Both the position numbers and the translations under genes were made by a program. From Clostridia bacterium (GTDB lineage Bacteria > Bacillota > Clostridia > Acetivibrionales > STF1-152), in contig JANQLN010000090.1 in assembly GCA_028280575.1 (NCBI GenBank), positions 1-53,964 of the forward strand: DNA of 53,964 bases, in the 5' to 3' direction. The first letter of the stretch is position 1; each line of letters starts with the position of its first letter. Below the pieces are notes generated by a model. It did not search any database. It was not told the origin of the DNA and saw nothing but the letters and a program-made list of their open reading frames with translations. Shown piece after piece: positions 5,734-53,964 of the stretch.

Positions 5734-6621
5734 GTGAATTTTGTAAAAACTGAATTACATGAAGAAATAGCCATTAAAAGGATTGTAACCGTTCACTATT
5801 TTGAATATACCAGTAATTACAGCTTTAAAGGAGAAGAACATGATTTTTGGGAATTTTTGTATGTTGACAAGGGTGAAGTGGAGGTTATGGCAGGCGATAA
5901 AAACCATACCTTGAAGCGGGGAGACATAATCTTCCACAAGCCCAACGACTTCCATAATGTTTTTGCCAACGGCAGGGTTGCTCCAAACCTTATAGTGGTA
6001 TCCTTTGAATGTGAATCCAAAGCAATGCGATACTATGAAGGGAAGATACTTTCCCTGGGCAATAACGAAAAAAACATACTTGTTAAAATTGTTAGCGAAT
6101 CAAAAAAAGCATATGGACCATTATTGAACAATACAAACTTAAAAATGCTTAAAAAAAATCCAAACCTTCCCTTTGGCTGTGAGCAGCTTATAAAAATTAA
6201 CCTTGAACTGCTGCTGATTACTTTGATAAGAAGAGGGTCCGGTATTTGCCTTGAAAACAAAATCCTATCAATCGCTAAGGAACAGTCGGACAATGACCTG
6301 ACAAATAAAATAATCGCATATTTATCGGAAAACCTGGAAAGCAGTATCAGGTTTGCAGATGTTATGCATTATTCACACTTGAGCCGAACAAATCTGAAAA
6401 TGCTTTTTAAGAAAAAGATGGGGACCGGTGTAATTGAATACTACAGGAAGCTCAAAATTGAAAAGGCAAAATCAATGATACGGGAGGGCAGGCTGAATTT
6501 TACCCAGATTGCAAATGCATTAAAATACAACACAGTACACTATTTTTCAGCCCGTTTCAAAAAGGAAACCGGTATGACCCCTACCGAGTATTCCCAATCC
6601 GTAAAAGCACAGACAACCTAG
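5734..6621 (+). CDS. AraC-family regulator with N-terminal cupin domain
   Basis: 295 residues from GTG 5734, chosen for GGGAGG at ideal spacing. Residues 1-100 form an AraC-type sugar-binding cupin (EHDFWEFLYVDKGEVEV, LKRGDIIFHKPNDFHNV); residues about 190-290 hold two HTH motifs (IRFADVMHYSHLSRTNLKM; FTQIANALKYNTVHYFSARF). It follows the GntR gene by 38 bp, so they may be cotranscribed. The TAG stop is made of bases 2-4 of a palindromic repeat element (CTAG...), so insertion of the element may have set the present C-terminus (VKAQTT). Confidence 0.93.
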   Translation: MNFVKTELHEEIAIKRIVTVHYFEYTSNYSFKGEEHDFWEFLYVDKGEVEVMAGDKNHTLKRGDIIFHKPNDFHNVFANGRVAPNLIVVSFECESKAMRYYEGKILSLGNNEKNILVKIVSESKKAYGPLLNNTNLKMLKKNPNLPFGCEQLIKINLELLLITLIRRGSGICLENKILSIAKEQSDNDLTNKIIAYLSENLESSIRFADVMHYSHLSRTNLKMLFKKKMGTGVIEYYRKLKIEKAKSMIREGRLNFTQIANALKYNTVHYFSARFKKETGMTPTEYSQSVKAQTT

Positions 6622-6692
6622 TACCTTGAGTCATCTAAAAGTATTGTTTTGCAACGGTCTGATTTTCGCAATACTTCGTTGTCGTCAATGAA

Positions 6693-28555: not shown

Positions 28556-28744
28556 CCCCTTTTCCCCTTTCACACCATCTTTTTCTCCAATTTCCATACT
28601 CAAATCAGGATTATGCCTTTTTTCCATTATACGTCTTGCTTTGCCGGCTGCCAGCCTTGCAGGGACCCCATTCACAGATATGCTCAGGCCCTGGCTTCTG
28701 CAAATAGAAAGTCTTTTTTTTGACTCGGACGGTTCTTTTAACAC
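28556..28744 (-). pseudogene. Internally deleted remnant of a mutS2 copy
   Basis: In one frame the stretch encodes three pieces of the intact MutS2-like protein joined together: EPSESKK (intact EPSAVKK), LSISVNGVPARLAAGK (intact LSISMNAVPARLTTGK) and ARRIMEKRHNPDLSMEIGEK (intact ARREMEKRHNPDLSIEIGEK). At DNA level 28581-28644 matches 29832-29895 at 61 of 64 bases, and 28645-28714 matches the region near 30915-30990. The first junction falls on a shared CTTTGC, so deletion by short homology is likely. It abuts the metalloprotease start in frame. Confidence 0.85.
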
Positions 28745-29812: not shown

Positions 29813-31795
29813 TTATCCGTCCACATCATATTTTTCTCCAATTTCTATACTCAAATCAGGATTATGCCTTTTTTCCATTTCACGTCTTGCTTTGCGGTTT
29901 TGCACCGAATCAAAAACAATGGAAAAATCATAATTTTCAGGGTAAAGCTCACTTGCAGGAATACGAAGCTTTATCCTTTTATGGTTTACAAGCACCTCTT
30001 TACCCTTGATCTGTACACCAAATTCACCTTTACCATTGGCTTTTTTGCAAACTATACCCGTAAGTTTTTGCGGATATACAATAACACTGTCTCCAATGCT
30101 GAACTTATCAACCTTGGGGCTCATCTTAAAATTCTTCATCTTCTTTTCCTGTATACATATATCTTTTGTCTTTTCTTCCTTTTGAATATGAGGAATTTTA
30201 TTGAAATCTGATGCATTGTAATGTGCAGCCGGCAGGTTTTCCCCGTCCCCATTCCCACTATAAGCTACCGTATATGCCCTGTCTATCATTTTTTGAGGTA
30301 ATCCTAAACGCTTTGCAATATAAAGGGCGCAGCTCTGACCGGCTTCTCCGATTTCAAGTTTGTACAATGGGACAAGATTTTGCCTGTCAAAAGCCATCCT
30401 GGCATTTATCAATCCGTCCGACCGCCTGGCAAATTCCTTTATTTCAGGATAATGTGTTGTTGCAACAAAAAGGCAATCCTTTTTTAACATCTCCTCAAGT
30501 ATTGCAGTTGCAATCCCCATACCTTCGACAGGGTCTGTGCCTGAACCCAGCTCGTCCAGCAATACAAGGGACTGTCCATTGGAAATATTCAAAATTTGTA
30601 TAATATTCGCCATATGTGACGAAAATGTAGACAGATTTTCTGTTATGCTCTGCCCGTCTCCAATATCGCATAAAACCATGTTATGCATGCAGAAGAGGGC
30701 CTCTTCGGCAGGCACATGCAGTCCGCTCTGCGCCATAATTGAAAACAGTCCCACCGTTTTTAATGCAACAGTCTTGCCGCCCGTATTGGGTCCTGTAATA
30801 ATGATTCCCCTTGCCGGGCCTCCATTCGTTATTCCTGTTCCAATATGAAAATCAACCGGAACAACTTCATCTGCTTTGATAAGCGGATGCCTGCCGGATT
30901 TTATAAAAATTCCTTTGCCGGTTGTCAGCCTTGCAGGGACCGCATTCATGGATATGCTCAGCCTGGCTTTTGCAAATAGAAAGTCTAGTGTTTCCATAGC
31001 TTCAATATTAACTCTAACAAGGGGCAGGTAATCTTCCACAAGGGCAGTAAGGGTATATAGTATTTTTCTAACCTCATTTTCTTCATCAATGTGTAATATT
31101 GAAAGCTCCTCCTGCATTTTTTTGACAGCGGACGGTTCAATAAAATACGTGCCCCCACTCCTTGATGTATCTACTATTGTCCCATTTATACAATTCTTAT
31201 ACTCCCTCTTTACGGGTAAAGCAAAATGGCCGTTGCGGTTTACAATCAAACTTTCACTAAAATATTTGCCGTTATTTCTTAAAATTGAATCAAGCTTTGC
31301 TTTTACCCGGTCACTTGTACGTACAATCTTCTTGCGAATATTTGCAAGGGCGGCAGATGCTTTTTCATCAACCATATTACCTTTAATAGAGCGTTCGATT
31401 TCATCTTTCAACTCCGACAGGTCATTTATGGAATTCCCATACAAAGCAACATGGGTGTATGTGCTTTCAGCCTTTTTCAAATATATTTTCATCCTATTGC
31501 AGGCAGTTATAAACAGGCTCACACAATTAAGCTGTTCCGGCAGCAGCATTGCATCTTTGCCAAGCAAAGCCAGAACTTTTTCAAGCTCCGCCATTGAAGC
31601 AAGAGGCGGCGTACCCGAAAAAACAATGATCTTTTTTGCCTGGGTTGTTTCATGGGTACACCTTTCTACTTCTGATTTTTCCATATAGGGCTCAAGCCTT
31701 TTTATTTTTTCCTTTGCCCTGTCCGACAAGGCATATTCAGACAGCATATCCAGTATCTTATCAAATTCAAGCGCTTTAAATGTTTTTTGTTTCAT
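29813..31795 (-). CDS. MutS2-like ATPase without Smr domain
   Basis: 660 residues; MutS2 is usually about 780-800. The N-terminal half has clamp and lever segments (RKKIVRTSDRVKAKLDSILR, HFALPVKREYKN). The ATPase has Walker A ITGPNTGGKTVALKT near residue 335, IGDGQSITENLSTFSSHM, Walker B LVLLDELGSGTDPVEG, and VATTHYPEIKEFA. After a KOW/SH3-like stretch (SIGDSVIVYPQKLTGIV) it stops at about the point where the Smr nuclease domain should begin. MutS2 acts on recombination intermediates and collided ribosomes; without Smr its nuclease function is presumably absent. A scarred copy of parts of this gene lies about 1 kb downstream. Confidence 0.9.
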   Translation of the reverse strand: MKQKTFKALEFDKILDMLSEYALSDRAKEKIKRLEPYMEKSEVERCTHETTQAKKIIVFSGTPPLASMAELEKVLALLGKDAMLLPEQLNCVSLFITACNRMKIYLKKAESTYTHVALYGNSINDLSELKDEIERSIKGNMVDEKASAALANIRKKIVRTSDRVKAKLDSILRNNGKYFSESLIVNRNGHFALPVKREYKNCINGTIVDTSRSGGTYFIEPSAVKKMQEELSILHIDEENEVRKILYTLTALVEDYLPLVRVNIEAMETLDFLFAKARLSISMNAVPARLTTGKGIFIKSGRHPLIKADEVVPVDFHIGTGITNGGPARGIIITGPNTGGKTVALKTVGLFSIMAQSGLHVPAEEALFCMHNMVLCDIGDGQSITENLSTFSSHMANIIQILNISNGQSLVLLDELGSGTDPVEGMGIATAILEEMLKKDCLFVATTHYPEIKEFARRSDGLINARMAFDRQNLVPLYKLEIGEAGQSCALYIAKRLGLPQKMIDRAYTVAYSGNGDGENLPAAHYNASDFNKIPHIQKEEKTKDICIQEKKMKNFKMSPKVDKFSIGDSVIVYPQKLTGIVCKKANGKGEFGVQIKGKEVLVNHKRIKLRIPASELYPENYDFSIVFDSVQNRKARREMEKRHNPDLSIEIGEKYDVDG

Positions 31796-35914: not shown

Positions 35915-36679
35915 TTAAATTCCACCCCTGTTGTAATACTGCATGCCCCAGGGGTATTGCCCGTACCCCGACCATTTATATTTGTGCTTTAGCAATTGGG
36001 GCAGAAGAAGCTCATTATATTTCTCCGGAAACCTGATTATCTTATATGCTTCAGCATATATGAACCCTGCACCGGCCATATGCCCCCTGAATCCTGCAGC
36101 CACTTTTTTTTCATTCCACAGGTGTTTACCCTGTGCGCTGGGCTGGTCAAACACCATAAGTGATTTTTTTATCCTGTCCATATCTTCACTGATGTCAACA
36201 AAAAAATCAGGATAAAAATATACCATTGTCTGCATCGGGCCAACTTCATAGGAGTGTATTTCACATGATGTACTCCTCAAGCATTTTATTGAGGCCCTGG
36301 AAACCTCATAATGCTCAATATGGTTATCATAGGGAAACATTATAAATGCAATGTCAGGGTTTATTTTTTCAACAGCAGACTTTACGGGAATTATATTGCT
36401 CCAATTTGCTTCAAAGAATGAATTGTCCTTTTTACCGATTATAATTTTTTCAGCTCCAAGGATTTCGGCAGCATAAATATCCTGCCTGTCAAAATCCTCC
36501 ACCAGTTTTGGATCCTCAAAAATTCTCCTTGCCTTTTCGCTATCATGCCTTCTCTTACATGAGATATTCACAAAAACCACCCTGAATCCAAGCCTGGAAA
36601 GCTGGCAGGCAAGGCCTCCCGCTGCAAACTCACAATCATCATTATGTGCACCTATGAATAAAGCTGTTTTATCCTGCAT
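35915..36679 (-). CDS. PIG-L/LmbE-family deacetylase
   Basis: 254 residues. The family zinc motif A-H-N-D-D-C-E lies near residue 11 (FIGAHNDDCEFAAGGLACQL), with IMFPYDNHIEHYEVSRASIK providing the second His cluster. These enzymes remove acetyl groups from N-acetyl sugars (GlcNAc conjugates) or related amides. It is last in the carbohydrate locus, 20 bp after the GH4 gene, so the imported sugar may be N-acetylated. Cytoplasmic, no signal peptide. Confidence 0.9.
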   Translation of the reverse strand: MQDKTALFIGAHNDDCEFAAGGLACQLSRLGFRVVFVNISCKRRHDSEKARRIFEDPKLVEDFDRQDIYAAEILGAEKIIIGKKDNSFFEANWSNIIPVKSAVEKINPDIAFIMFPYDNHIEHYEVSRASIKCLRSTSCEIHSYEVGPMQTMVYFYPDFFVDISEDMDRIKKSLMVFDQPSAQGKHLWNEKKVAAGFRGHMAGAGFIYAEAYKIIRFPEKYNELLLPQLLKHKYKWSGYGQYPWGMQYYNRGGI

Positions 36680-36699: not shown

Positions 36700-38019
36700 T
36701 CAAGTTAGAAACTGCCTGTTATAATCCATAAGCTCCCTGCAAAGCTCATTGATATTCCTGAAATCATTAACCAGGGGATCGGTGTTAAGGGCAGCTTTCA
36801 GCTTATCCGGATTGTTTTCCATTGACGCCTCCATATACAGTTCTTCCCTGATACCTATCGGTCTTACTATGCTGTCCAGTATAGGCGGAAGATCTCCTGT
36901 CTGGTGAGGGTGTACTCCTGTTGAGTCAATGGTGCATTTTGTTTCAACAACCATATTCCCCGGCAGGTTTGGTATTTGGCCCTCATTGGGGTAATTAAGT
37001 ACGTCAACATATGTCCCTCCGCCATTAAGAGCCGCAATGAAATCATCAATTTGTTCCGATACCCTTCCGCCTTCAAGCGGCACGGTGCCATCCAGCATCA
37101 TCTTAAGCTTTTTCCTGTCCCTGGACTTTGTCCTAGGCCGTTCGACAATCCTGTCATAATAAACCTTATAATACTCTCTTGTCTCCTTGTCCTTTGTAAC
37201 CTGCCCAAAAAATTCACATATATGCTCATCGCTTATTGCAGGAAAATACCCTATAATATCCCATATCAAAAACCTTATCCTCTGGTTTTCCCTTCCTGCA
37301 AAAGGATCGTCATAACCGGCTATGGAATTACCCAGTTTTGCTCTTTCAATCCATCCTTTGTCCCTGAGCATCTTAAGTACATCCCTTCCAAAGTGCTTTA
37401 TGTCAAGATGCCATGAACAATGGTCAACGCCTGCAACATTAAATTCTACTCCATCCCACCCGTCTGCCCCAAAAAGCGGAAAAAGGCATTTAAGATGATT
37501 TCTCACACCATGGCAAAATCCTGCACACTTTATTGATGTGTATCTCTTGACAGCTCTTGTAACTGCAGTCAGTGGATTTGTAACGTTTAACATCCAGGCG
37601 TCAGGGCATTTCTTTTCCATTCTTTTAGCAATCCTGACAATCTCGGGAACATGCCTGATTGTCCTTGAACAACCGGCAATACCCACTTCAGTGCCTTTCA
37701 GGTTATAGAATCCATATCTCCTGGCAATCCTGTGGTCCTCCATTGCTGCGTCCAGACCCCCATGGGCTATGGAAACAACTACATAAGAAGCGCCGTCAAG
37801 AGAAATATCAAGGTCCATGGTCTTACTGATACCGATATCGCTTTGCGGGTAAAGCTTCTTTACCTTGTTAAAATAATCATATGTGTCATTAACATTCTCT
37901 TCATCTATATCCATCAGGCACAATTCAATGTTTTTATTGAAAAAGCTGTTGCTTAAAAATCCTCTCATTAATGAAGGCATCCATGAATAAGACCCTCCTC
38001 CTATCAAAGATATTTTCAT
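36700..38019 (-). CDS. Glycoside hydrolase family 4 protein
   Basis: 439 residues from ATG 38019 (GGAAGGTGA eight bases upstream). NAD-binding start KISLIGGGSYSWMPSLMRGF, VVVSIAHGGLDAAMEDH, NVTNPLTAVTRAV, and the metal ligands in GFCHGVR (Cys) and VAGVDHCSWH (His). GH4 enzymes hydrolyse alpha- or beta-glycosides by an NAD-dependent oxidation-elimination route and need Mn2+. Substrates range from disaccharide 6-phosphates to galacturonides; here no PTS is nearby, so an unphosphorylated glycoside such as a uronide or hexoside is more likely. A predicted activator-dependent promoter lies directly upstream. Confidence 0.93.
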   Translation of the reverse strand: MKISLIGGGSYSWMPSLMRGFLSNSFFNKNIELCLMDIDEENVNDTYDYFNKVKKLYPQSDIGISKTMDLDISLDGASYVVVSIAHGGLDAAMEDHRIARRYGFYNLKGTEVGIAGCSRTIRHVPEIVRIAKRMEKKCPDAWMLNVTNPLTAVTRAVKRYTSIKCAGFCHGVRNHLKCLFPLFGADGWDGVEFNVAGVDHCSWHLDIKHFGRDVLKMLRDKGWIERAKLGNSIAGYDDPFAGRENQRIRFLIWDIIGYFPAISDEHICEFFGQVTKDKETREYYKVYYDRIVERPRTKSRDRKKLKMMLDGTVPLEGGRVSEQIDDFIAALNGGGTYVDVLNYPNEGQIPNLPGNMVVETKCTIDSTGVHPHQTGDLPPILDSIVRPIGIREELYMEASMENNPDKLKAALNTDPLVNDFRNINELCRELMDYNRQFLT

Positions 38020-38069
38020 TATAACTTTCACCTTCCAATATCATAGGGATATTTTAAAACCATGATTCA

Positions 38070-38075
38070 ATTATA
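38070..38075 (-). promoter_or_regulatory. -10 box of the GH4 promoter (no -35 box)
   Basis: TATAAT on the minus strand. Seventeen bases further upstream there is no -35-like hexamer; instead the proximal half of a direct repeat (38097-38102) lies 21 bp away, the layout of an activator-dependent promoter. Confidence 0.6.
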
Positions 38076-38096
38076 CTAAAAACAGAAAATGAATAT

Positions 38097-38128
38097 ATGG
38101 ACTTTTATTATTAAAAAAATGGACTTTT
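38097..38128 (-). promoter_or_regulatory. Putative response-regulator operator upstream of the GH4 gene
   Basis: Two identical direct half-sites AAAAGTCCAT (minus strand; 38128-38119 and 38106-38097) spaced 22 bp, about two helical turns. The 33-bp block 38098-38130 matches 47979-48011, before the permease operon, at 30 of 33 bases. It overlaps the last codons of the kinase gene. Direct repeats suit the AraC-type HTH of the adjacent response regulator. Confidence 0.65.
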
Positions 38129-40807
38129 ATCATTGCTTTCCATGGTCTGAAAGATTAAAGGTATTCTAATTGTCACACTTGTGCCTTTTCCTAACTCACT
38201 TTCTATAGAAACTTTGAATTCATTGCCATAAAACAGCTTAATCCTGGATTGTACGTTGAGAATCCCTATTTTTTCACACAAACTGCTTTTATTCAGGTTT
38301 TCCCTCATCTTGCCGATATGTGAATCTTTAATCCCTTTTCCGTTGTCCATTACCTTTATGATTAATTTGTTATTGTCCGAATAGCACTTGATTATGACTT
38401 TACCTTTAATACTTCCATTGTCCAATCCATGATAGACAGCATTTTCCACAATGGGCTGAACGAGCATCTGCATTATTGACGATTTCAGGAGATTTTGAGG
38501 AATATCAAATTTGAAATCAATGTTGGAGCCGTACCTGATTTTAACAATATTAATATATGACCTTACGTAGTTAAGCTCATCTTCCAGACTGATCAAGGCC
38601 GACTTTCTTCCCATTCCGCACCTTAACAGTTCACCCAGGTCATTTAACATCTTTATGGATTCCTTTTTATGGTTATTACGAATCATATACACAATATTCT
38701 CCATTGTATTGAAAATGAAGTGTGGTGATATCTGGGCCTGAAGAGCAAACATTTCTGCCTTGTCTTTCTTCTCTTCCATATTCTTTCTCATTTTATTGGC
38801 AATCAAAACGTCGTCAAATAATTGTTCAATTTTATCAACCATACTATAAAAAGTTACCGCTATTTCATCGATCTCACTTATTGATAACCCATCTATCATC
38901 GGGTTATCGTATTCACCAAGTTCAAACTGGTCAAATGCCCTGTTAACCTTATTAACCTGCTGCATAATTTTTTTTGAAATGAATATTGTTATAAGGACCG
39001 TCAGGACCAATGCCGCACAAAGAATGTATATGCTGCTGATATAAATCCTGTTTGTTTCATTATAGATGACTTTGTAGTCATATACAACCAGCAACCGCCA
39101 GGGTGTCTTCAATATGGGGTAGCAGTATACTCCTTTTTTCCTGCCGTCAGTAATCTCACCGGCTTGCTCCAATTCATGGGTGAAATACCTGTCATTACTG
39201 AAAATATCCTTTCCTTCCCCGTCGATAATATGTACCCGGGTGCTATTGTTATATATACTCATATACTGCTTCAGCAAATTATTGTGGGTAATCCTGACAC
39301 GTGCAAATCCTATGGTGGAATTTATATTATAATCATACAGCAAATTGAACTTTTGTCCTACAAATACCACATCAGTATTGATTTGATCCCTGGCAACAGT
39401 AAAAACAGCTCCTCTTCCGGAATGCTTTAAAATTTCGTAATACTCACTGTCCAATTTTTTTTCAGCATTAAGGTAATTGCTGAAAACCAGCCTGTTTTCC
39501 ATATCATAAATATCTATCTGCAGGTCATCAAGACCCAGGTATATATTATTCTCCACCAGCTCCACAAGCTGCTCGTAGCTTTGCTCGTCCTTTTCAATCA
39601 TGTATTTTTGTGTAGGATTATCAAATACTATTCTTTTTAATATTTGCATTTTATTGTCAATATATTCGGACATCACCATGCTTACCTTTCCAAAAGACTG
39701 GGACAGCACCTGGCTCATTATGTTATTTATAATATTATTACTCGTTTTCAAGTAGTACATTATACTGAAGATAAGTACAGGTATTAAAGCTGTAGCAGTG
39801 AAATAAATAAATAAGCGCTTTTTAAGATTTAATGTGTGCCTTTTCTTTAAAGGAAAATCTTCTTTTAATCCTTTTCCAACCCTATAGGTTTCCATCTTTT
39901 GCGTAATTGATGTTACAGGGCTCATAACTATCCTTGAAAGAAAAAAAGAAAAAACAAAAGACAGCAATATACTTGAAAAGACAATGGCAATAAGCAATAA
40001 TACAATATTTTTAAAGTGCTCCTGAAAATAACTGTCGTCAGGAATATATTTAAGCTTCCAATTTGCGAACGACAGTTTTGTTTCATACATGGCTGATTGA
40101 TTTAGCGTTTTTTTTGATTCCTTTATTTCATCACCAACATAGACCTTATTGCCTTCATCGTCAGTAATTACTACATGCTTCATACTGTTATTCAAGCTCT
40201 CCATTACGTCTTTTTCCATAATCACGTATACATTATATTTATTCCCTTCCCCTTCGGAGGAACAGGCAAAATAGTACATATTTTCAATATTGCCTATGAA
40301 ATTCCCCCTGGTGTCAGAGCTTGTTTTTACAGTATGAGAACCTCTCGGGTACATAATTTCAATACCTTCATATTTCCTGTTTATCAATTCATTGTGCAAA
40401 TTTACGGAAAAGTAATATTTCTGGCTTCCGTATTGTATTTGCGGGGTTACTATATTTATGGTATTTATTCTGCGTGAAGCATCCTGTATATAATCCAGCA
40501 AACTGTCAATTTCTTCAACAAGCTTGTTTTTTATAAAAACAGAGCTTTTTCCCTGTTCTATTTTACTTATGTTGTTTTTTATTCTCTGGTTCTTTTTAAG
40601 GCTTTCCGTAATGGTAAAGGCCCTGCTAAATGTATTGTCAACATCTGCAACAATTTGCTCAAACCGGCTCTTGTGAATTTCATCTACTTTTTGATGCAAA
40701 AAATTTCTTACGGAAATACTTGATGTTCCTCCAAGTATTATGATACATGTAATTGAAATACAATTTGATATGAACAGCAAAATAATTCTGAACTTGTATT
40801 TTCTCAT
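38111..40807 (-). CDS. YesM-family sensor histidine kinase with two stacked sensor modules
   Basis: 898 residues from ATG 40807 (GGGG seven bases upstream), while YesM-type kinases are usually about 580-600. Membrane segments lie at about 8-27, 267-293, 331-352 and 587-611, enclosing two external sensor domains (28-266 and 353-586). Then come HAMP (612-665), the His_kinase motif with QISPHFIFN (phospho-His696) and an HATPase domain ending in the G-boxes VMDNGKGI and GKGTSVTIRIP. It phosphorylates the response regulator encoded 14 bp upstream. The duplicated sensor suggests two signals or binding-protein contacts are integrated. Confidence 0.92.
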   Translation of the reverse strand: MRKYKFRIILLFISNCISITCIIILGGTSSISVRNFLHQKVDEIHKSRFEQIVADVDNTFSRAFTITESLKKNQRIKNNISKIEQGKSSVFIKNKLVEEIDSLLDYIQDASRRINTINIVTPQIQYGSQKYYFSVNLHNELINRKYEGIEIMYPRGSHTVKTSSDTRGNFIGNIENMYYFACSSEGEGNKYNVYVIMEKDVMESLNNSMKHVVITDDEGNKVYVGDEIKESKKTLNQSAMYETKLSFANWKLKYIPDDSYFQEHFKNIVLLLIAIVFSSILLSFVFSFFLSRIVMSPVTSITQKMETYRVGKGLKEDFPLKKRHTLNLKKRLFIYFTATALIPVLIFSIMYYLKTSNNIINNIMSQVLSQSFGKVSMVMSEYIDNKMQILKRIVFDNPTQKYMIEKDEQSYEQLVELVENNIYLGLDDLQIDIYDMENRLVFSNYLNAEKKLDSEYYEILKHSGRGAVFTVARDQINTDVVFVGQKFNLLYDYNINSTIGFARVRITHNNLLKQYMSIYNNSTRVHIIDGEGKDIFSNDRYFTHELEQAGEITDGRKKGVYCYPILKTPWRLLVVYDYKVIYNETNRIYISSIYILCAALVLTVLITIFISKKIMQQVNKVNRAFDQFELGEYDNPMIDGLSISEIDEIAVTFYSMVDKIEQLFDDVLIANKMRKNMEEKKDKAEMFALQAQISPHFIFNTMENIVYMIRNNHKKESIKMLNDLGELLRCGMGRKSALISLEDELNYVRSYINIVKIRYGSNIDFKFDIPQNLLKSSIMQMLVQPIVENAVYHGLDNGSIKGKVIIKCYSDNNKLIIKVMDNGKGIKDSHIGKMRENLNKSSLCEKIGILNVQSRIKLFYGNEFKVSIESELGKGTSVTIRIPLIFQTMESNDKSPFF

Positions 40808-40820
40808 ATAAATACCCCGT

Positions 40821-41573
40821 TCAATCCATGTTTTGCATCCTATACTTAAGAGGAGAAGCGCCACACCGTTTCTTAAATATTTTGCAAAAATAGGTATAGT
40901 CTTCATATCCCAGTTTTATTGCTATATCTTTTATCCTGTATGTTGATTTCATCAGCATCAATTTCGCATTATTGATCCGGATATCGGTTACAAATTCAGT
41001 AAATGTCTTGCCTGTTTCATTTTTAAAAAGCAGGCTGAGATATGATGGATTGACATTCAAATCCAATGCCATTTCATGAAGCAGAATCCTTTTTCCTATG
41101 TTTATTGTAATATATTTGATAGCCTTATCGACAATATCTCCACAGGAGGTATTATTTGCAGCCATACCGTGGTTATCGTAAAGTATGCCGTTGTCATGGC
41201 TGCTTAATTCACATACTGCCTTTTGCACGGCCTCAATCATCTTCCTTGGATTGACGGGCTTTAATAAAAATCCTTTAACTCCCAGGTTTATTGCCTTTTG
41301 CGCATATTCAAAATCATTGTATGCGCTTATTATTATGCAGTATATGTTTTTATGCTTTTCTCTTATGATCCGTATCAGTTCAATTCCATCCATATTAGGC
41401 ATTCTTATATCAGTCAGCAATATATCAGGGTTGTACCTGTTGACATGGTTCAATGCTTCACAACCGTCTTTTGCCGTACTGATTTTTCCTATGCCGTGCT
41501 TCCTCCACGGAATAACGGATTGTATATTATCTCTTATAAAATACTCATCATCAACAATCAAAACACTGTACAT
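40821..41573 (-). CDS. YesN-type response regulator with AraC HTH
   Basis: 250 residues from ATG 41573 (MYSVLIVDDE). The receiver domain has D8-D9, phospho-acceptor D55 (LLTDIRMPNMDGIEL) and LKPVNPRK; the C-terminal 100 residues hold two AraC HTHs (LHEMALDLNVNPSYLSLLFK; IKDIAIKLGYEDYTYFCKIFKKR). It is paired with the kinase 14 bp downstream and sits inside the carbohydrate locus. The duplicated direct-repeat sites before the GH4 and permease genes are its probable targets. Confidence 0.95.
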   Translation of the reverse strand: MYSVLIVDDEYFIRDNIQSVIPWRKHGIGKISTAKDGCEALNHVNRYNPDILLTDIRMPNMDGIELIRIIREKHKNIYCIIISAYNDFEYAQKAINLGVKGFLLKPVNPRKMIEAVQKAVCELSSHDNGILYDNHGMAANNTSCGDIVDKAIKYITINIGKRILLHEMALDLNVNPSYLSLLFKNETGKTFTEFVTDIRINNAKLMLMKSTYRIKDIAIKLGYEDYTYFCKIFKKRCGASPLKYRMQNMD

Positions 41574-41731
41574 ATCATCAGATTCCTTTTTAATATTCTG
41601 AACATACATATGTTCCTAATAATCATAAGATCTAATAACAAACTTCTGATGCCTTGCATACAAGGCTTCCGGAATAATAAAACAGGTATACTTAGATTAT
41701 AAAGCTTTGAAATCAGGTTTGCAAGGGCATA

Positions 41732-43273
41732 TTATTCATAATAAATCCATACTGCCACATCCTTCAGCATAAATAGTGATTTTTTGGATTTATGAAGTAT
41801 TGTGCTTATAATATTATTTCCTTCAAAAACAATATCGGAAGGCACATGATATTTCATGTAAAGTCCTTCCGTATTGACATAGCAGAGCTTGTTCTTATTG
41901 AACAGTACGTCTATTTCATTCTCATTGGGCTTTTTTTCTATTCTTAGGCCAAGAAAAACTTCAGCCTTTATTTTGTTTTTGGTATTGAGTTTCATATCAT
42001 CTCCAATAAGAATGCTTATATCTTCATTTTGCCTTGAAGATATTTTTACAGGACTGTCGGGATTCAGCACAGGTATTCTTATAAACTTTTTGTGCGGATA
42101 TCCTCCTCCGGGAATTCTGGCCACACCTCTTGTGCTGACTACATATATCTTGCTTTCCCTGTTCAGCATCTTAATATCTCCAATGCTTTTGAATATGGTA
42201 TCACTGTCTTCGGAATACCCGGTAAAATTCATTGCTTCATAGTTAAAAAGATAAATGCCGTCGGCTCCCGCCCTCAGGGCATTCATTGCCCTGGCCTTAT
42301 AGCATTGTACTTTTTCCCTCAGTTTTCTCCCTGCTTCGTCATTTATCCTGGTTTCATCAAGAGAAGGATATACTTTCACTCCATACCTGTGCCCCAGATC
42401 AATGCTGTAATTCCAATCGTTGAGCCTTATATAGCTTGTAGGAACCATTATATCAATCAGGCCTTCACTCATCCAGCCGGCGATATCCAGTCCGATTGCC
42501 CTGCTATAATCAATACTGTCGGGCACCCTTACCGATAATAACAGCCCCCTTCTGCAGCTCATGCTTTTTTCATCCAGCAATCCCCTGATTTCCTTTATGA
42601 GCTCTGTCATTTTCAAAATTTCCCATTGGGAAGCTGGTTTTCCACGGGCTGTTGACTTAAAAAAGACAGGATGCCTGAAAAAATCGAGATTTATACCATC
42701 AACATAATAATTGTCCAGTACTTCCCTGATAAATGAAACTGCCTTTTTCCTTACCTCCTCATGGCTGTAGTCTACTGCCGACCATTTTCCAACCGGAGGA
42801 TTTTTACCCTTTTTACCCATCAATAACTCAGGATGCTTCATTTTAAATTCATTGCTTTCAAATGCAATGACGGCATTCTCATTGTTGTGCCCGTCATGGG
42901 TATCATTCATTCTTAATTCCCAGAATATTTCAATGCCGTTGTTTCTGCAAAAGTCTGAAACTAATTCCAGGTGGTCTGTTCCCTGCTTAATCAAATCACC
43001 TGTAATATTTTTACCGAATCCACCTTCTTTGCTGGTAAGAATGCTGCCTGCCGCTGTATTGTGGGTAAACAGGCCAAAGCCTGCACCCATGGTTGCACAA
43101 AACACTGCATCCACACTTGTGCCGGCCAGCCTGTTCATCCTTTTCGACAAAAATTCTTCCCTGTCCGGGCTATTGCATTCGGCAAGCACATCACAGCCGT
43201 CATTGTTAAATATGATTCTTCTTTTTTTATTCAAAACAGAATTCCTGTTTTCCATATGCTGTTCACATAACAT
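41732..43273 (-). CDS. GHL10-like (family 10-type) glycoside hydrolase, cytoplasmic
   Basis: 513 residues from ATG 43273 behind GGAGG. A TIM barrel of the glycosyl-hydrolase-like 10/DUF187 type is suggested by GIEIFWELRMNDTHDG, VDYSHEEVRKKAVSFIREVL, DGINLDFFRHP (probable catalytic acid region), DIMVPTSYIRLNDWNY and ADGIYLFNYEAMNF, followed by a beta-rich C-terminal domain. There is no signal peptide, so it should act on imported glycan. The C-terminal region lacks family matches I recognise. The role is inferred from barrel pattern and context; the substrate is not known. Confidence 0.8.
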   Translation of the reverse strand: MLCEQHMENRNSVLNKKRRIIFNNDGCDVLAECNSPDREEFLSKRMNRLAGTSVDAVFCATMGAGFGLFTHNTAAGSILTSKEGGFGKNITGDLIKQGTDHLELVSDFCRNNGIEIFWELRMNDTHDGHNNENAVIAFESNEFKMKHPELLMGKKGKNPPVGKWSAVDYSHEEVRKKAVSFIREVLDNYYVDGINLDFFRHPVFFKSTARGKPASQWEILKMTELIKEIRGLLDEKSMSCRRGLLLSVRVPDSIDYSRAIGLDIAGWMSEGLIDIMVPTSYIRLNDWNYSIDLGHRYGVKVYPSLDETRINDEAGRKLREKVQCYKARAMNALRAGADGIYLFNYEAMNFTGYSEDSDTIFKSIGDIKMLNRESKIYVVSTRGVARIPGGGYPHKKFIRIPVLNPDSPVKISSRQNEDISILIGDDMKLNTKNKIKAEVFLGLRIEKKPNENEIDVLFNKNKLCYVNTEGLYMKYHVPSDIVFEGNNIISTILHKSKKSLFMLKDVAVWIYYE

Positions 43274-43302
43274 ATGATATCCTCCATTATTACAAAAGAG
43301 TT

Positions 43303-44202
43303 TTATACAAGACTAAAGCTTTCCAGGAGCTTTTCCACTCTTTTCATTTCACTCCGGTCAAGACTTTTGACAGGATGTGCCATAAAACGCTCTCCCATAC
43401 CTCTTATTTCCATAGCCGCCTTTATTGCGGCCATGGCACAACAGGATGTTGCCTCAAAAAGCGAATGGTAAAAATCAATAAACCTTAAATACTCTTTGTT
43501 TGCTTCATTATACCTTCCATCGTTAAATAGGTTCAATATTTCTACGCACCATCCGGGGGTAAGGGTACTGGGCCCTCCCATTATAAAAGACTCTATTCCA
43601 ATTGATAATGCCGGGAGGTACAGGAATTCGTCTCCGGAAATAAGGGTAAAATCCTCCCTGTCCCTGAATAAAATTTGCATTTTCTGCAGTGTTATCTGGT
43701 CCGAGGTTTCCTTCAAACCTATTATTCCAGGATGAACAGATACTTTTGAAACTGAGGCCGGACTCATATGGTTAAGGCTTTCAGGACAATTGTATATTAT
43801 TACCGGCAGGATTTCGTCATCGGCTATTTTTATAAAGAAATCGATCATTTCTTCCTGTGTCAACGGATAAAATGACGGTGGTGTCAGCAGGGCAATATCC
43901 GCACCAGCTTCCTTTGCATCTTGTATATATTGCCCCGCAGCCCTTGTGCTTTCGGCAAAGGTGCCTGCTATTACTTTTGCTCTGCCCGATACAATATCTA
44001 CGGTATTCTTGATTATTTCTTTTCTTTCACACCGGTCAAATGCTTTGACCTCCCCCGCAAAACCTAATGGAAATACAGCATCAAATCCGCTTTTTAAAAC
44101 GTAATCTATTTCACATTTCATATTTTCGGGATTAAAAGCACCTCCGTCATCCAACTGTGTGCAAACAGCAGCAATCAATCCATCCAGCTTAATTTTTTCC
44201 AT
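43303..44202 (-). CDS. DHDPS/N-acetylneuraminate-lyase-family aldolase
   Basis: 299 residues. Schiff-base lysine K164 in GIIGLKETS, tyrosine Y137 in VIIYNCPES, and GFAGEV (48-53) at the place of the family's GTTGE. The family includes sialic acid lyase, KDG aldolase and dihydrodipicolinate synthase. In a locus with a sugar ABC importer, GH4, GHL10 and PIG-L, a keto-acid sugar aldolase is more likely than a lysine enzyme. It lies 30 bp before the GHL10 gene and about 60 bp after the binding-protein gene. Confidence 0.88.
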   Translation of the reverse strand: MEKIKLDGLIAAVCTQLDDGGAFNPENMKCEIDYVLKSGFDAVFPLGFAGEVKAFDRCERKEIIKNTVDIVSGRAKVIAGTFAESTRAAGQYIQDAKEAGADIALLTPPSFYPLTQEEMIDFFIKIADDEILPVIIYNCPESLNHMSPASVSKVSVHPGIIGLKETSDQITLQKMQILFRDREDFTLISGDEFLYLPALSIGIESFIMGGPSTLTPGWCVEILNLFNDGRYNEANKEYLRFIDFYHSLFEATSCCAMAAIKAAMEIRGMGERFMAHPVKSLDRSEMKRVEKLLESFSLV

Positions 44203-44262
44203 ATTGTTCTCCCATACCTTTCATTGGATTTTATTCACAGGACATGCAGCATAAGCATAAAG

Positions 44263-45954
44263 TTATTCCGACATCATATTTTCATATGTATCAATATCGT
44301 CCAGTAATGATAACATCTCAAATAGCTTCGCTTTCTCCAGCTTCTTAATGTAACTGTCCCACTCGGCATCAATGTCAATTTCTCCAACTATGGCTTGTGC
44401 CATGAACTCATCCCTGATTGCCTTGATAGCATTATTATATTTTTTTCTTTCTTCTTCAAATTTTGTTTCATAGAACAAATCAGCTTTGTACGGCTTGAAT
44501 AAGTGCTCAGGTTCAGCCCATATTCCCCAGCTGAATTCAGATGCCTTCTGCCATGCAGCAGTCATCTGGTATTTATTTGTAACCCCGGTATTCATATAAT
44601 CATTAAAAACCACAAGTCCTGTTTTACCGCCTAATTCGGTATCCTCTTTCAATACTGCCGCAGATTTGTACGGTTCACCTTCCCAATCAAAATGCACACC
44701 TTCTTCACCGTATCGGAGATACAACTGCGCTTCTTCATCAAATCCGCAAAAATCAACAAACTCCAGGATTCTTTTAAGCTTCTCGTCATCCACATCTTTT
44801 CTTATATGGAAATAGTTTTTCTGGGGGGTTATCCTGTACATGTCACTTCCCCATTTTCCCTCGGGACCTATAGGACCGGGTGTCATCAACACCTTTGAAT
44901 CGCCGTCTACACTCAAAAGGGATAGGGGAGGCCTGTTTTGAGCCCAGGAAGACAGGCTTGATACTCCATTCTGGAAGCACCCGAACATCCCGTTAGTTAT
45001 TTTATCCCATGCAATATGCATATCCAGTACAAAAGCTTCAGGATCAATATATCCCTTTTCATAAATCCTGTTTGCAAACTTGAGAAAATCCTTATAATCT
45101 TCCAGAACATATGCAGGCCTGACCTTTCCGTCCACATTATGATTCCAATACCAGCTCAGTCCGAAAGCGCCCATAAGATTGATCCATGAATGTGATACCT
45201 CCTTATTTGCCGAATAGCCATAAGTATCATTTTCATTATTCCCGTCAGGATCATCCTCTGTGAATCTCCTCATTATGTCTTCAAAATCATCTAGCGGGTA
45301 GCCGTATTTTGATGCAAATATGCGTCCGTCATCATCGAGCTGTATGATTTCACCTTCGGGCAAATCAATACCCAAGTTTTCCAGCCAATCCAACCTGTAG
45401 TACATACACCTTATGGATTGAAGCAAAAAACTGGGGTCAAAGCCCGACAGGCTCATGAGCTCTTCATCAGATTCCTTGGTTTTAAATATTTTCCATATTA
45501 TAGGATATTTATCGTAAAAGGCTGCAAGCCTGGGTGAATATTCACGTACCATGCTTACGGGAACTGACCTTGTAAGCTCCTGTACGTAATACATATCATA
45601 AGCATTTCTGCTGATCCAGCCGCAATCAGGCATTTCCCCCGATGACAGCATAAGGTTTATCTGGTCTCCGTCCTGAATATTCACTTTTTTAACATCAAGA
45701 TCTATATTCAGCTCCTCTTCCAGCTTTAAAATAGCCCATGCATCCTGGTCAATATTTCCGCAGTTCAAGCTTACAAAGGATATTTTCATCTTCTCCTTTT
45801 TATTTGAATCTTTATCATCAGTCATTTTACCTTCCGTTTTTGTGTCTTCATTTTTTTCATCACCGGACTTATTGCAGCCCATAAGAAAGACCATTATCAT
45901 AGCTGACACAATTATAAAGCAGACAAGCTTTTTAAACCCTTTATTTTTCAACAT
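44263..45954 (-). CDS. Sugar ABC transporter substrate-binding lipoprotein (LplA-like)
   Basis: 563 residues with a lipoprotein signal ending at the lipobox FLMGC near residue 27 and an acidic, Lys-rich linker. The rest resembles large family-1 binding proteins (LNIDLDVKKVNIQDGDQINLMLSSGEMPD; DDPDGNNENDTYGYSANKE, a calcium-type acidic loop also common in LplA proteins). It delivers an oligosaccharide to the two permeases encoded upstream. Its size suits a longer or branched sugar. Confidence 0.92.
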   Translation of the reverse strand: MLKNKGFKKLVCFIIVSAMIMVFLMGCNKSGDEKNEDTKTEGKMTDDKDSNKKEKMKISFVSLNCGNIDQDAWAILKLEEELNIDLDVKKVNIQDGDQINLMLSSGEMPDCGWISRNAYDMYYVQELTRSVPVSMVREYSPRLAAFYDKYPIIWKIFKTKESDEELMSLSGFDPSFLLQSIRCMYYRLDWLENLGIDLPEGEIIQLDDDGRIFASKYGYPLDDFEDIMRRFTEDDPDGNNENDTYGYSANKEVSHSWINLMGAFGLSWYWNHNVDGKVRPAYVLEDYKDFLKFANRIYEKGYIDPEAFVLDMHIAWDKITNGMFGCFQNGVSSLSSWAQNRPPLSLLSVDGDSKVLMTPGPIGPEGKWGSDMYRITPQKNYFHIRKDVDDEKLKRILEFVDFCGFDEEAQLYLRYGEEGVHFDWEGEPYKSAAVLKEDTELGGKTGLVVFNDYMNTGVTNKYQMTAAWQKASEFSWGIWAEPEHLFKPYKADLFYETKFEEERKKYNNAIKAIRDEFMAQAIVGEIDIDAEWDSYIKKLEKAKLFEMLSLLDDIDTYENMMSE

Positions 45955-46099
45955 ATCAATATCCTCCCTATTCTTATTCTAAACCTTATTAAATCAAAAG
46001 AACACAGCTAAAGATTATAATATTTTTTTTACCACCTCCTTGTCCATGATAAATAAAAAAATCAGCAACCACCTCTTTTCTCTAATTGTCTTTTTTCGC

Positions 46100-46990
46100 T
46101 CATCCCTTCAATGAACCTATCATTACACCCTTCACAAAATATTTTTGCAAAAACGGGTATACACAAATTATCGGAATAGTTATCAGCATTGTTATAGCAG
46201 CTCTTACCGTTCTTGGCTCAATTTTGGTTTTTACGGTGGCTTCCATTTCAAATGCATGCATATCACTTGTAACATCCTTGATGTTATCAAGCATTCTTCT
46301 TAAAATCATCTGGAGAACTATTTTGTTTTCATCCTTTATGTAAATAAAGCACGTAAACCAGTCATTCCAAAGGGAAACTGCATGCCATAATGCTATGGTC
46401 GCCAGCACAGGCTTTATGATGGGAATCAAAATTGTAAAAAGTATCCTTGGATAGCCCGCACCGTCTATCAGGGCCGATTCTTCTATCCCATTGTCGACTG
46501 TCGATATATATGTCCTTGTAACAAGCATGCTGAACACACTGAAGGCTTGCGGTATTATATATACCAAAAGGTTGTCAACCAATCCGATATACCTGTTGAT
46601 TATATAGCTTGGTATGAGTCCTCCTGAAAAATATAAGGGTATGAGGAAAAACAATATGATTATTTTCCTGTATTTCAAATCTTTTTTTGACAAAGGGTAT
46701 GCAACAAAAAGGCAAAACACAACATGCAGTGCCGTACCTGTTACCGTTCTCAAAACCGTGACTATAATAGACCTTACGATCTGGTCATCCTTGAAAAGGT
46801 ATATGTATGAGCTGAAAGTCAATTTTTCCGGCCAGAATCTGATTTTCAGCGAATTAACAGATAAAGGCTCGGAAAATGACATTACCATCATATCCCAAAA
46901 AGGCAGGAATATGCTTATGCAGAAAACAGCCATCAGCAAGAGGTTTATAATATCAAATGCTTTATCCCATTTACTCTTTTTACAAGCCAA
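46100..46990 (-). CDS. Carbohydrate ABC permease (LplC/YtcP-like)
   Basis: 296 residues with six membrane segments. The cytoplasmic coupling loop has IDGAGYPRILFTILIPIIKPV (EAA-type motif), and the protein ends FVKGVMIGSLKG as is typical of this group. It pairs with the next permease upstream. No ATPase gene lies in the locus, so a shared MsmX-type ATPase elsewhere must energise it. Confidence 0.95.
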   Translation of the reverse strand: MACKKSKWDKAFDIINLLLMAVFCISIFLPFWDMMVMSFSEPLSVNSLKIRFWPEKLTFSSYIYLFKDDQIVRSIIVTVLRTVTGTALHVVFCLFVAYPLSKKDLKYRKIIILFFLIPLYFSGGLIPSYIINRYIGLVDNLLVYIIPQAFSVFSMLVTRTYISTVDNGIEESALIDGAGYPRILFTILIPIIKPVLATIALWHAVSLWNDWFTCFIYIKDENKIVLQMILRRMLDNIKDVTSDMHAFEMEATVKTKIEPRTVRAAITMLITIPIICVYPFLQKYFVKGVMIGSLKG

Positions 46991-47015
46991 TTTTTTCCCT
47001 CCAGATATAAATATT

Positions 47016-47909
47016 TTAAAATACAGATGTAGCTTTCAGGCTTTTTGCTATTTTATTCGATGTAATTACAAGAATGAATCCCACTACATTCTGGAATATG
47101 CCGATAGCCGCCGAATACGCGTAGTCTCCGCCAAGTATTCCAATCCTGAAAGTATATGTACTGAACACATCTGCTTTAGACATAACCTGGGCATTATACA
47201 AATTATACACAGGATCAAATCCGACTTTCATCACTTTCCCAACTGCCAGTATGAGCAATATGGTAGCCGTAGGCATAATACCCGGCAGTGTTATGTTAAC
47301 CATTTTTTGAAATCTGTTCGCACCATCAATTTCTGCTGATTCATATTGACTTTGCTCAATACCAGCTATTGCAGATAAATATATTATGGAACCCCATCCC
47401 ACGCTTTGCCATAATAAGGAAATTATCAGTATTGGTACAAACAAATCCTTGTCCCCCATAAAAAAGATCGGTTTAGGTATAATATCCAATTTAGAAAGCA
47501 CAGCATTTACAAGGCCTACTTCAGTTGACAGCAGCTGGTATACAAATCCTGAAATAACTACCCATGAAATGAAATGGGGCAGATATGAAATTGTCTGTAT
47601 TGCTTTCTTGATTTTTATATTCACTATTTCATTTATTAAAAGAGCAAAAATAATGGTAACAATAAATCCTGTAAAAATGTTAAGCAGGCTTATTTTAACC
47701 GTATTTCCAAGGACCCGGTAAAATAAATAATCGTCAAAAAGCCTTTTATAGTGCTCAAAATTATTCCATTCGCTTCCAAGAATCCCTCTGCCAAACTTAA
47801 AATCCTTAAATGACAATACAATGCCCCATATGGGTAAGTACTCAAAGACTATCTGGTGTATGACTGGCAGTATTAATAAAAAATAAAGCGACCTGTACTT
47901 TTTTACCAT
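47016..47909 (-). CDS. Sugar ABC permease (LplB/YteP-like)
   Basis: 297 residues, six membrane segments, beginning MVKKYRSLYFLLILPVIHQI and with the EAA loop AEIDGANRFQKMVNITLPGI. First gene of the carbohydrate operon; a consensus -10 and a direct-repeat operator lie 40-95 bp upstream. The next permease gene starts 25 bp downstream. Confidence 0.95.
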   Translation of the reverse strand: MVKKYRSLYFLLILPVIHQIVFEYLPIWGIVLSFKDFKFGRGILGSEWNNFEHYKRLFDDYLFYRVLGNTVKISLLNIFTGFIVTIIFALLINEIVNIKIKKAIQTISYLPHFISWVVISGFVYQLLSTEVGLVNAVLSKLDIIPKPIFFMGDKDLFVPILIISLLWQSVGWGSIIYLSAIAGIEQSQYESAEIDGANRFQKMVNITLPGIMPTATILLILAVGKVMKVGFDPVYNLYNAQVMSKADVFSTYTFRIGILGGDYAYSAAIGIFQNVVGFILVITSNKIAKSLKATSVF

Positions 47910-47951
47910 ATATGTTTTCTCTTTTCATTAAAAATTTAATGCTGCAATATT

Positions 47952-47957
47952 ATTATA
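47952..47957 (-). promoter_or_regulatory. -10 box of the permease operon promoter (no -35 box)
   Basis: TATAAT on the minus strand, without a -35 hexamer at 16-18 bp. The proximal operator half-site lies 20 bp upstream, mirroring the GH4 promoter. Confidence 0.6.
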
Positions 47958-47977
47958 CTTGAAAAGAACAAGCAAAG

Positions 47978-48009
47978 ATGGAATTTTATTATTAAAAAAA
48001 TGGATTTTC
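47978..48009 (-). promoter_or_regulatory. Putative response-regulator operator upstream of the permease operon
   Basis: Direct half-sites GAAAATCCAT (48009-48000) and AAAATTCCAT (47987-47978), spaced 22 bp. Near-identical to the site before the GH4 gene, at nearly the same distance from the -10 box and from the start codon (about 70 bp here, 79 there). Confidence 0.65.
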
Positions 48010-51302: not shown

Positions 51303-51331
51303 TTGATGCTTGTATAATAATATGCTATACT
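51303..51331 (+). promoter_or_regulatory. Promoter of the AraC-family gene
   Basis: TTGATG (51303-51308), 17-bp spacer, TATACT (51326-51331). It leaves a leader of roughly 85 bp before the chosen start. Confidence 0.6.
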
Positions 51332-51423
51332 TTATATATAACTTCATAATGCAAGCATTGAAGCCGTTTCATATAGGTTACCACTTTTTAATTTGTATTG
51401 AAATAGCAAAAAGGATGTATGGG

Positions 51424-52266
51424 ATGATAAAAAGCGAACAATGTTTCAAAGGTTTTGATTCTATTTTAAACAGAATTCCTGATGAAAACAGCATTGGAAT
51501 ACACGGAAGCTACCGGTTTCCTGTCTACCCGGGATGGAAAGCCGGTATACAGGACTACACCAACCTGCATATCCTCTATGTTACAGGAGGAAAAGGTGCA
51601 TATCATATTCTGGACGGAAGTGAAATACCCTTAAGTCATGGCAGTCTTGTCATTATTACTCCGGGTATCAAACACTATGCCACGGTTGATGAGTACTGTC
51701 CATTATGTATTTCAGGATTTCGCTTCGGGCTGTATGACAGGAAAGGCTGCCATGTTACAAAAGAAGTTGTAACCCCTTTTTATTCATATACGCAAGTAGA
51801 AGATACATATCAAATGGACAGATTTACAGGAAATGTGCATAATGTCTTTCACCATTCCGGAACAAAAGCAGCCCGGCTGTATGTATTATCATGCATTTTA
51901 CAGATGCTTGCAATGCTGTGTATGAATTTTAAGGAAAAAAAGAAATTGAAACTATGCGACAGGAGAATGGAAGCTGCAAAGCAGATGATAGAATTGTCTG
52001 TTTTCAGCAAAATGACATTAGGCCAAATTTCAGATAAGCTTGGCATTACACCAAGGTATCTGCAAAAAAAATTCAAAAGCTTATATGGTTTTTCACCAAA
52101 AGAGTATTATTTGCAAAATCTTATGAATCAATCCTATAAGATGCTGTCACAAAAGGGGATGAGTGTCAGGGATGTTTCCGAAGCTGTGGGGTACAGCGAC
52201 CAATATGCATTCTCAAGACAGTTCAAGAAACACTTCAAAATTCCTCCATCGGCTGTAATGAAGTGA
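51424..52266 (+). CDS. AraC-family regulator
   Basis: 280 residues from ATG 51424, with AAGG nine bases upstream; a longer frame exists but would begin inside the promoter region. N-terminal cupin-like sensor (GWKAGIQDYTNLHILYVTGG, LSHGSLVIITPGIKHYA) and C-terminal pair of HTHs (LGQISDKLGITPRYLQKKFK; VRDVSEAVGYSDQYAFSRQFKKH). Divergent from the sulfatase gene, so a local sugar-responsive activator of it is likely. Confidence 0.93.
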   Translation: MIKSEQCFKGFDSILNRIPDENSIGIHGSYRFPVYPGWKAGIQDYTNLHILYVTGGKGAYHILDGSEIPLSHGSLVIITPGIKHYATVDEYCPLCISGFRFGLYDRKGCHVTKEVVTPFYSYTQVEDTYQMDRFTGNVHNVFHHSGTKAARLYVLSCILQMLAMLCMNFKEKKKLKLCDRRMEAAKQMIELSVFSKMTLGQISDKLGITPRYLQKKFKSLYGFSPKEYYLQNLMNQSYKMLSQKGMSVRDVSEAVGYSDQYAFSRQFKKHFKIPPSAVMK

Positions 52267-53814: not shown

Positions 53815-53964
53815 CTAGTACCTTGAGTCATCTAAAAGTATTGTTTTGCAACGGTCTGATTTTCCCAATACTTCGTTGTCGTCAATCGGAATACGGAAAG
53901 TATTCCTCAATCCTCCGCCTTATCTTGCAAAAATCATCCTCGTCGCAAATCCAATATTTTAAAT
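53815..53964. mobile_element. Palindromic MITE-like element, copy C (cut by window edge)
   Basis: Begins CTAGTACCTTGAGTCATCTA, runs through the same arms as copy B, has a small central hairpin GGAATAC/GTATTCC, and reaches TATTTTAAAT at the last base, exactly where the other end's TIR should begin. About 15 more bases would complete it. It lies directly upstream of the lipoprotein hydrolase gene. Confidence 0.78.

Follow-up and report, generated by a model that had tools for sequence, protein, structure and literature searches.

The window, i.e., the whole 53,964-nucleotide stretch of DNA from a Clostridia bacterium analyzed here, contains a carbohydrate locus whose genes follow two putative regulatory sites, designated A and B; the sites and their flanking genes all lie on the minus strand (Table 1). 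Behind site B, two permease genes are followed by those for a solute-binding protein, an aldolase, a 513-aa protein, a response regulator and a sensor kinase; behind site A, the gene for a GH4 enzyme is followed by that for a PIG-L deacetylase. An earlier, sequence-only reading of this DNA had placed the two sites ahead of the permease and GH4 genes, with a YesN-type regulator encoded between them, and this is the arrangement found. The regulator carries both an N-terminal receiver and a C-terminal AraC HTH domain (Response_reg, 16-129, E 3.8e-30; HTH_18, 181-258, E 8.5e-21), and its gene is adjoined by that of the sensor, also located between the sites. The longest ORF of the kinase starts at 40906, and this frame (38111-40906) matches PF06580 and PF02518. 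For the GH4 gene, the ATG at 38019 is most likely the start codon, rather than the GTG at 38031.

Table 1. Coordinates in the window of the putative operators, promoter elements and genes of the locus.
Feature	Position	Strand	Remarks
ABC permease (LplB-like, BPD_transp_1)	47016..47909	(-)	First gene behind site B
ABC permease (YtcP-like, BPD_transp_1)	46100..46990	(-)	
Extracellular solute-binding protein	44263..45954	(-)	PDB sequence relatives include 5gub, AlgQ2
DHDPS/N-acetylneuraminate lyase superfamily aldolase	43303..44202	(-)	
513-aa protein	41732..43273	(-)	Without Pfam or NCBIfam match
Candidate ordinary promoter TTGCAA-17-TATAAT	41696..41724	(-)	Precedes regulator gene
YesN-type response regulator (REC + AraC HTH)	40821..41609	(-)	Proposed activator
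YesM-like sensor kinase (HAMP weak, His_kinase, HATPase_c)	38111..40807	(-)	Probable start ATG 40807
GH4 glycosidase	36700..38019	(-)	Nearest solved relative LplD alpha-galacturonidase (3fef)
PIG-L family deacetylase	35915..36679	(-)	Second gene behind site A
Site B, upstream half-site GAAAATCCAT	48000..48009	(-)	
Site B, downstream half-site AAAATTCCAT	47978..47987	(-)	22-bp period
-10 box TATAAT, permease-led operon	47952..47957	(-)	20 bp from site B, without -35
Site A, upstream half-site AAAAGTCCAT	38119..38128	(-)	Inside final codons of kinase gene
Site A, downstream half-site AAAAGTCCAT	38097..38106	(-)	22-bp period
-10 box TATAAT, GH4-PIG-L operon	38070..38075	(-)	21 bp from site A, without -35

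Several of these proteins may hint at the nature of the substrate. AlgQ2, an alginate-binding protein, is among the nearest solved relatives of the solute-binding protein, and the aldolase matches the models for dapA, 5-dehydro-4-deoxyglucarate dehydratase and N-acetylneuraminate lyase, all below cut-off; from these relatives and those of the GH4 enzyme, we would guess at a uronate-containing oligosaccharide. The 513-aa protein has clear homologues only in three related genomes (G009, G022 and G441); matches in other places are weaker. Its homologues often neighbour the same type of transporter. The candidate promoter ahead of the regulator gene has a recognisable -35 box, unlike both operator-linked promoters, and is put forward as a suggestion, given that the promoter scan yields many chance matches. 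An additional AraC-family regulator, with a cupin-like domain, is encoded at 51310-52266, 3.3 kb beyond site B. The source genome (G000, 4.35 Mb) contains 82 matches to LplB-type permeases and approximately 200 first-look response-regulator candidates, counts that point to a great many sugar-sensing transporter systems.

The two sites share the same anatomy. Read on the minus strand, site A (38128-38097) runs AAAAGTCCAT-TTTTTTAATAAT-AAAAGTCCAT and site B (48009-47978) runs GAAAATCCAT-TTTTTTAATAAT-AAAATTCCAT, followed after 21 and 20 bp, respectively, by TATAAT; each thus comprises two 10-bp half-sites in direct repeat, separated by 12 bp. A and B have the same 12-bp spacer and differ at three half-site positions. 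The 3′ end of the kinase gene (final codons ...DKSPFF*; stop 38113-38111) reaches into site A. At 16-18 bp upstream of either TATAAT, direct reading finds no hexamer with more than 1-2 of the 6 bases of TTGACA, so the description of both promoters as lacking a -35 box is fair; with the transcription start placed by means of TATAAT, the proximal half-site occupies the -35 position of both. Direct-repeat half-sites approximately two helical turns apart are the shape predicted for an AraC-type operator, and it is present at A and B as well as in the two related genomes described below (G030 and G029). In their best ungapped alignment, the blocks are identical at 30 of 33 bases, a value to be compared with a maximum of 25 in 2,000 dinucleotide-preserving shuffles of both upstream regions. 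The resemblance of the blocks, the half-site repeat and the isolated -10 box had all been proposed beforehand from the letters of the window, and each withstood this scrutiny.

The combination of repeat and promoter is also rare. The score of the repeat plus TATAAT was reached by none of 5000 shuffles of the site A region and by one of 5000 for site B. Genome-wide, where the statistics are those of pattern searches, the paired half-site pattern with a gap of 11-13 bp had exactly two matches in 4.35 Mb, sites A and B themselves, and the reversed pattern used as control had none; no further copy appeared in the genome when one mismatch was allowed. With two mismatches, a single additional weak match was found on a different contig (C97:42414); it has no -10 box at the proper distance and was discarded.

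Among 197 relatives, no homologue of the regulator exceeds 43% identity, and a GTDB scan with the regulator returned distant YesN proteins only (best 35-49% over part of the sequence), the half-site of A and B being absent from all of their loci. Syntenic loci occur in G030 (contig C44: regulator 39%, kinase, permeases 53-60%, solute-binding protein 36%), G029 (C73: regulator 42%, kinase, permeases 50-54%) and G009 (C103: regulator 36%, kinase, 513-aa protein 45%). In G030, the strongest direct repeat past the kinase gene is AAAATATTACAT-N10-AAAATATTGCAT, with a period of 22 bp and TATAAT 20 bp on (score equalled by 1 of 5000 shuffles). In G029, the corresponding repeat is AAAAATATTACA/ATATATATTACA, again with a period of 22 bp and followed by a -10 box of TATATT/TATACT type; this match is weak and A/T-rich (8 of 5000 shuffles). 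No comparable site was found near the genes of G009, despite its homologous regulator-kinase pair. The heptapeptide DYTYFCK, in the second recognition helix, is common to the window's regulator and its homologues in G029, G030 and G009, and is missing in the unrelated YesN paralogues compared. A half-site core A.AA.A.T.CAT is common to the aligned sites at approximately 8 of 12 positions, in an alignment made by eye for regulators that are 36-43% identical. Since a related half-site and -10 distance recur in G030 and, more weakly, in G029, the absence of conservation that the sequence-only reading had named as counting against it was not observed; its suggested comparison of orthologous loci thus turned out favorably in one genome, less so in a second and unfavorably in a third, all through homologues of at most 43% identity. 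Conservation therefore appears partial: clear in G030, weak in G029 and absent in G009.

Pattern searches also covered the relatives. The only exact match to the generalised pattern A.AA.A.T.CAT in the G030 genome is the kinase-adjacent site, from which the pattern was itself partly derived; beyond it and the window's own sites, this search returned no intergenic place with a convincing, properly spaced promoter. Approximately 15 places in 2.4 Mb of collected DNA score at least 16/22 against the consensus of the window; the G030 site is one of them, and one of only two of them outside the window with a perfect TATAAT. The original half-site pattern with one mismatch found 13 other places in the 197 relatives, at most one per genome; they are taken as chance, because their total barely exceeds that of the reversed control and because the one nearest to the proper -10 distance (in G054) falls within a long ORF of the opposite strand. 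The operons of more distant kinase homologues (G015:C20, G029:C138 and C13 of the source genome) are not preceded by any convincing 22-bp repeat.

Taken with the gene order, these features make it likely that the local regulator uses A and B as operators, at which a tandem dimer would activate both operons by replacing the -35 contact. The membrane kinase would sense an extracellular oligosaccharide and phosphorylate the regulator, two subunits of which would bind the tandem half-sites on the same face of the helix (22 bp being two turns). The promoter-proximal subunit, in the position of the -35 box, would recruit RNA polymerase to TATAAT, turning on the transporter-aldolase operon from site B and the GH4-PIG-L operon from site A. 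Regulator and kinase would probably be supplied at a basal level from TTGCAA-17-TATAAT, boosted by read-through from site B. Binding, its dependence on phosphorylation, activation and the inducer are all predicted parts of this scheme. The self-contained circuit that had been envisaged from the window is consistent with the regulator-kinase pair between the sites, with an operator unique to the locus, and with the recurrence of the layout in G030 and G029.

Other explanations were considered for the same features. The sites could be AraC-type operators that serve another regulator, e.g., the one-component AraC/cupin protein encoded 3.3 kb away from site B, or a different YesN-type regulator out of the many candidates in the genome; we regard this as unlikely, as A and B flank the regulator-kinase pair and are found nowhere else, and a related site lies directly behind the homologous kinase gene in both G030 and G029. 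Very unlikely, in our estimate, is that the same regulator represses from these sites or uses them unphosphorylated, the missing -35 box being incidental. Their position relative to the start of transcription is inferred, which leaves room for such a role; against it, the second half-site stops 20-21 bp short of a perfect -10 box that lacks a -35 partner, as expected of an activator site, and in Caldicellulosiruptor bescii AraC-type sites lie upstream of mapped promoter elements for four of four one-component and three of five two-component regulators (PMC8579813).

It is also conceivable that the identity of the 33-bp blocks reflects a copied A/T-rich promoter fragment, or a dispersed repeat, of no regulatory role. 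The window does hold other short dispersed repeats. The spacer, the same in A and B although the half-sites are not, may point to one site having been copied from the other by duplication, as opposed to two sites maintained independently. Both copies, however, keep an equal spacing to TATAAT before two functionally linked operons, no more copies exist in the genome, and the related loci retain the 22-bp period with different spacers, so that we give the idea of a fragment devoid of function very little credence indeed. As the spacer differs in G030 and G029, its identity here would reflect either recent copying of a site or an A/T-rich spacer that aids bending in this organism.

The proposed operators resemble those of the E. 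coli regulator AraC, which at araI1-I2 binds direct-repeat half-sites spaced by approximately two turns; the nearer of the two takes up the -35 position, and the promoter's own -35 box is weak. AraC also represses by looping. It differs in being a one-component protein that binds arabinose itself and in its unrelated half-site. The simplest reading of sites A and B, by analogy with araI1-I2, would be class II activation by the phosphorylated YesN-type regulator. Further counterparts are BxgRS, with two conserved tandem-repeat sites, and other two-component regulators of C. bescii, for which 7-11-bp units were sought at 21- or 32-bp periodicity (PMC8579813). As here, a local kinase and an AraC-type response regulator are encoded beside a CUT1 ABC transporter and tandem sites (searched at 21-bp periodicity) lie upstream of promoters; organism, substrate genes and half-site sequence are different, and the C. 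bescii starts were mapped by 5′-end RNA sequencing whereas those of the window are inferred. In Ruminiclostridium cellulolyticum, the available part of the report on XydS/XydR describes an AraC-type response regulator and sensor kinase that activate glycan-use genes, as proposed here, and binding of XydR upstream of its targets in EMSA; that part defines no operator and reports no direct repeat with a 22-bp period, and the targets are cellulosomal hemicellulases instead of a permease/GH4 pair (PMC3572039). Since tandem sites are already known for the class of AraC-type two-component sugar regulators (PMC8579813), the locus is a sound predicted further example of a known layout and not a new class, a precedent that the sequence-only reading does not mention.

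The value of the locus lies in a specific operator prediction (ATAAAAnTCCAT, with a 22-bp period before TATAAT) for one sugar-sensing two-component system out of a very large and largely unassigned class. To judge from the match in distant relatives, operators might be readable from layout and recognition helix, which would aid regulon assignment in genomes with dozens of such systems. In 963 upstream regions, mostly YesN-linked, direct repeats before a -10 box (9/10 matching bases, -10 at 16-23 bp) were commonest at periods of 20-23 bp: these four of the 23 period classes hold 12 of the 23 matches, the shuffled mean being 0.3 per class. This clustering is a moderate statistical signal and not a demonstration. 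It is possible, if on balance doubtful, that the YesN class shares a rigid layout (half-sites at 21-22 bp, the -10 box 20-21 bp on and no -35 box) with letters that track the second recognition helix; where a genome has dozens of YesN systems, every one could then be assigned its own operator from sequence alone.

Several of these repeats resemble operators of other YesN systems, such as ACTTTTGTTCAAAA with period 22 (locus L086), TTTGTCCAAT with period 21 (L130) and a TGTTACC repeat with period 21 on contig C81 of the source genome. Candidate operators, with repeats of 21-23 bp before a -10 box, were noted near other YesN genes upstream of L086 12211, L130 16232, L135 9288, L067 6805 and L237 136. 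An LplB-type permease gene beside a related kinase in G030 (contig C20; L307, ~5894-5960) is preceded by an 11-bp tandem array (ATAATGATCAT/ATAATGATCAG), possibly a multi-copy operator with one helical turn per unit.

Some further repeats were observed in the window. A dispersed repeat of approximately 70 bp (agtaccttgagtcatctaaaagtattgttttgcaacggtctgattttc.caatacttcgttgtcgtcaat) is situated close to both window ends (6618-6688 and 53817-53887), the former copy being followed by a short tandem GTGTCGTACCTGA array. Three similar stretches of approximately 50 bp lie within or close to the region of a MutS-domain gene (28590-28650, 29840-29890 and ~30870), and tttttctccaatttc.atactcaaatcaggattatgcctttttccat is common to the first two.
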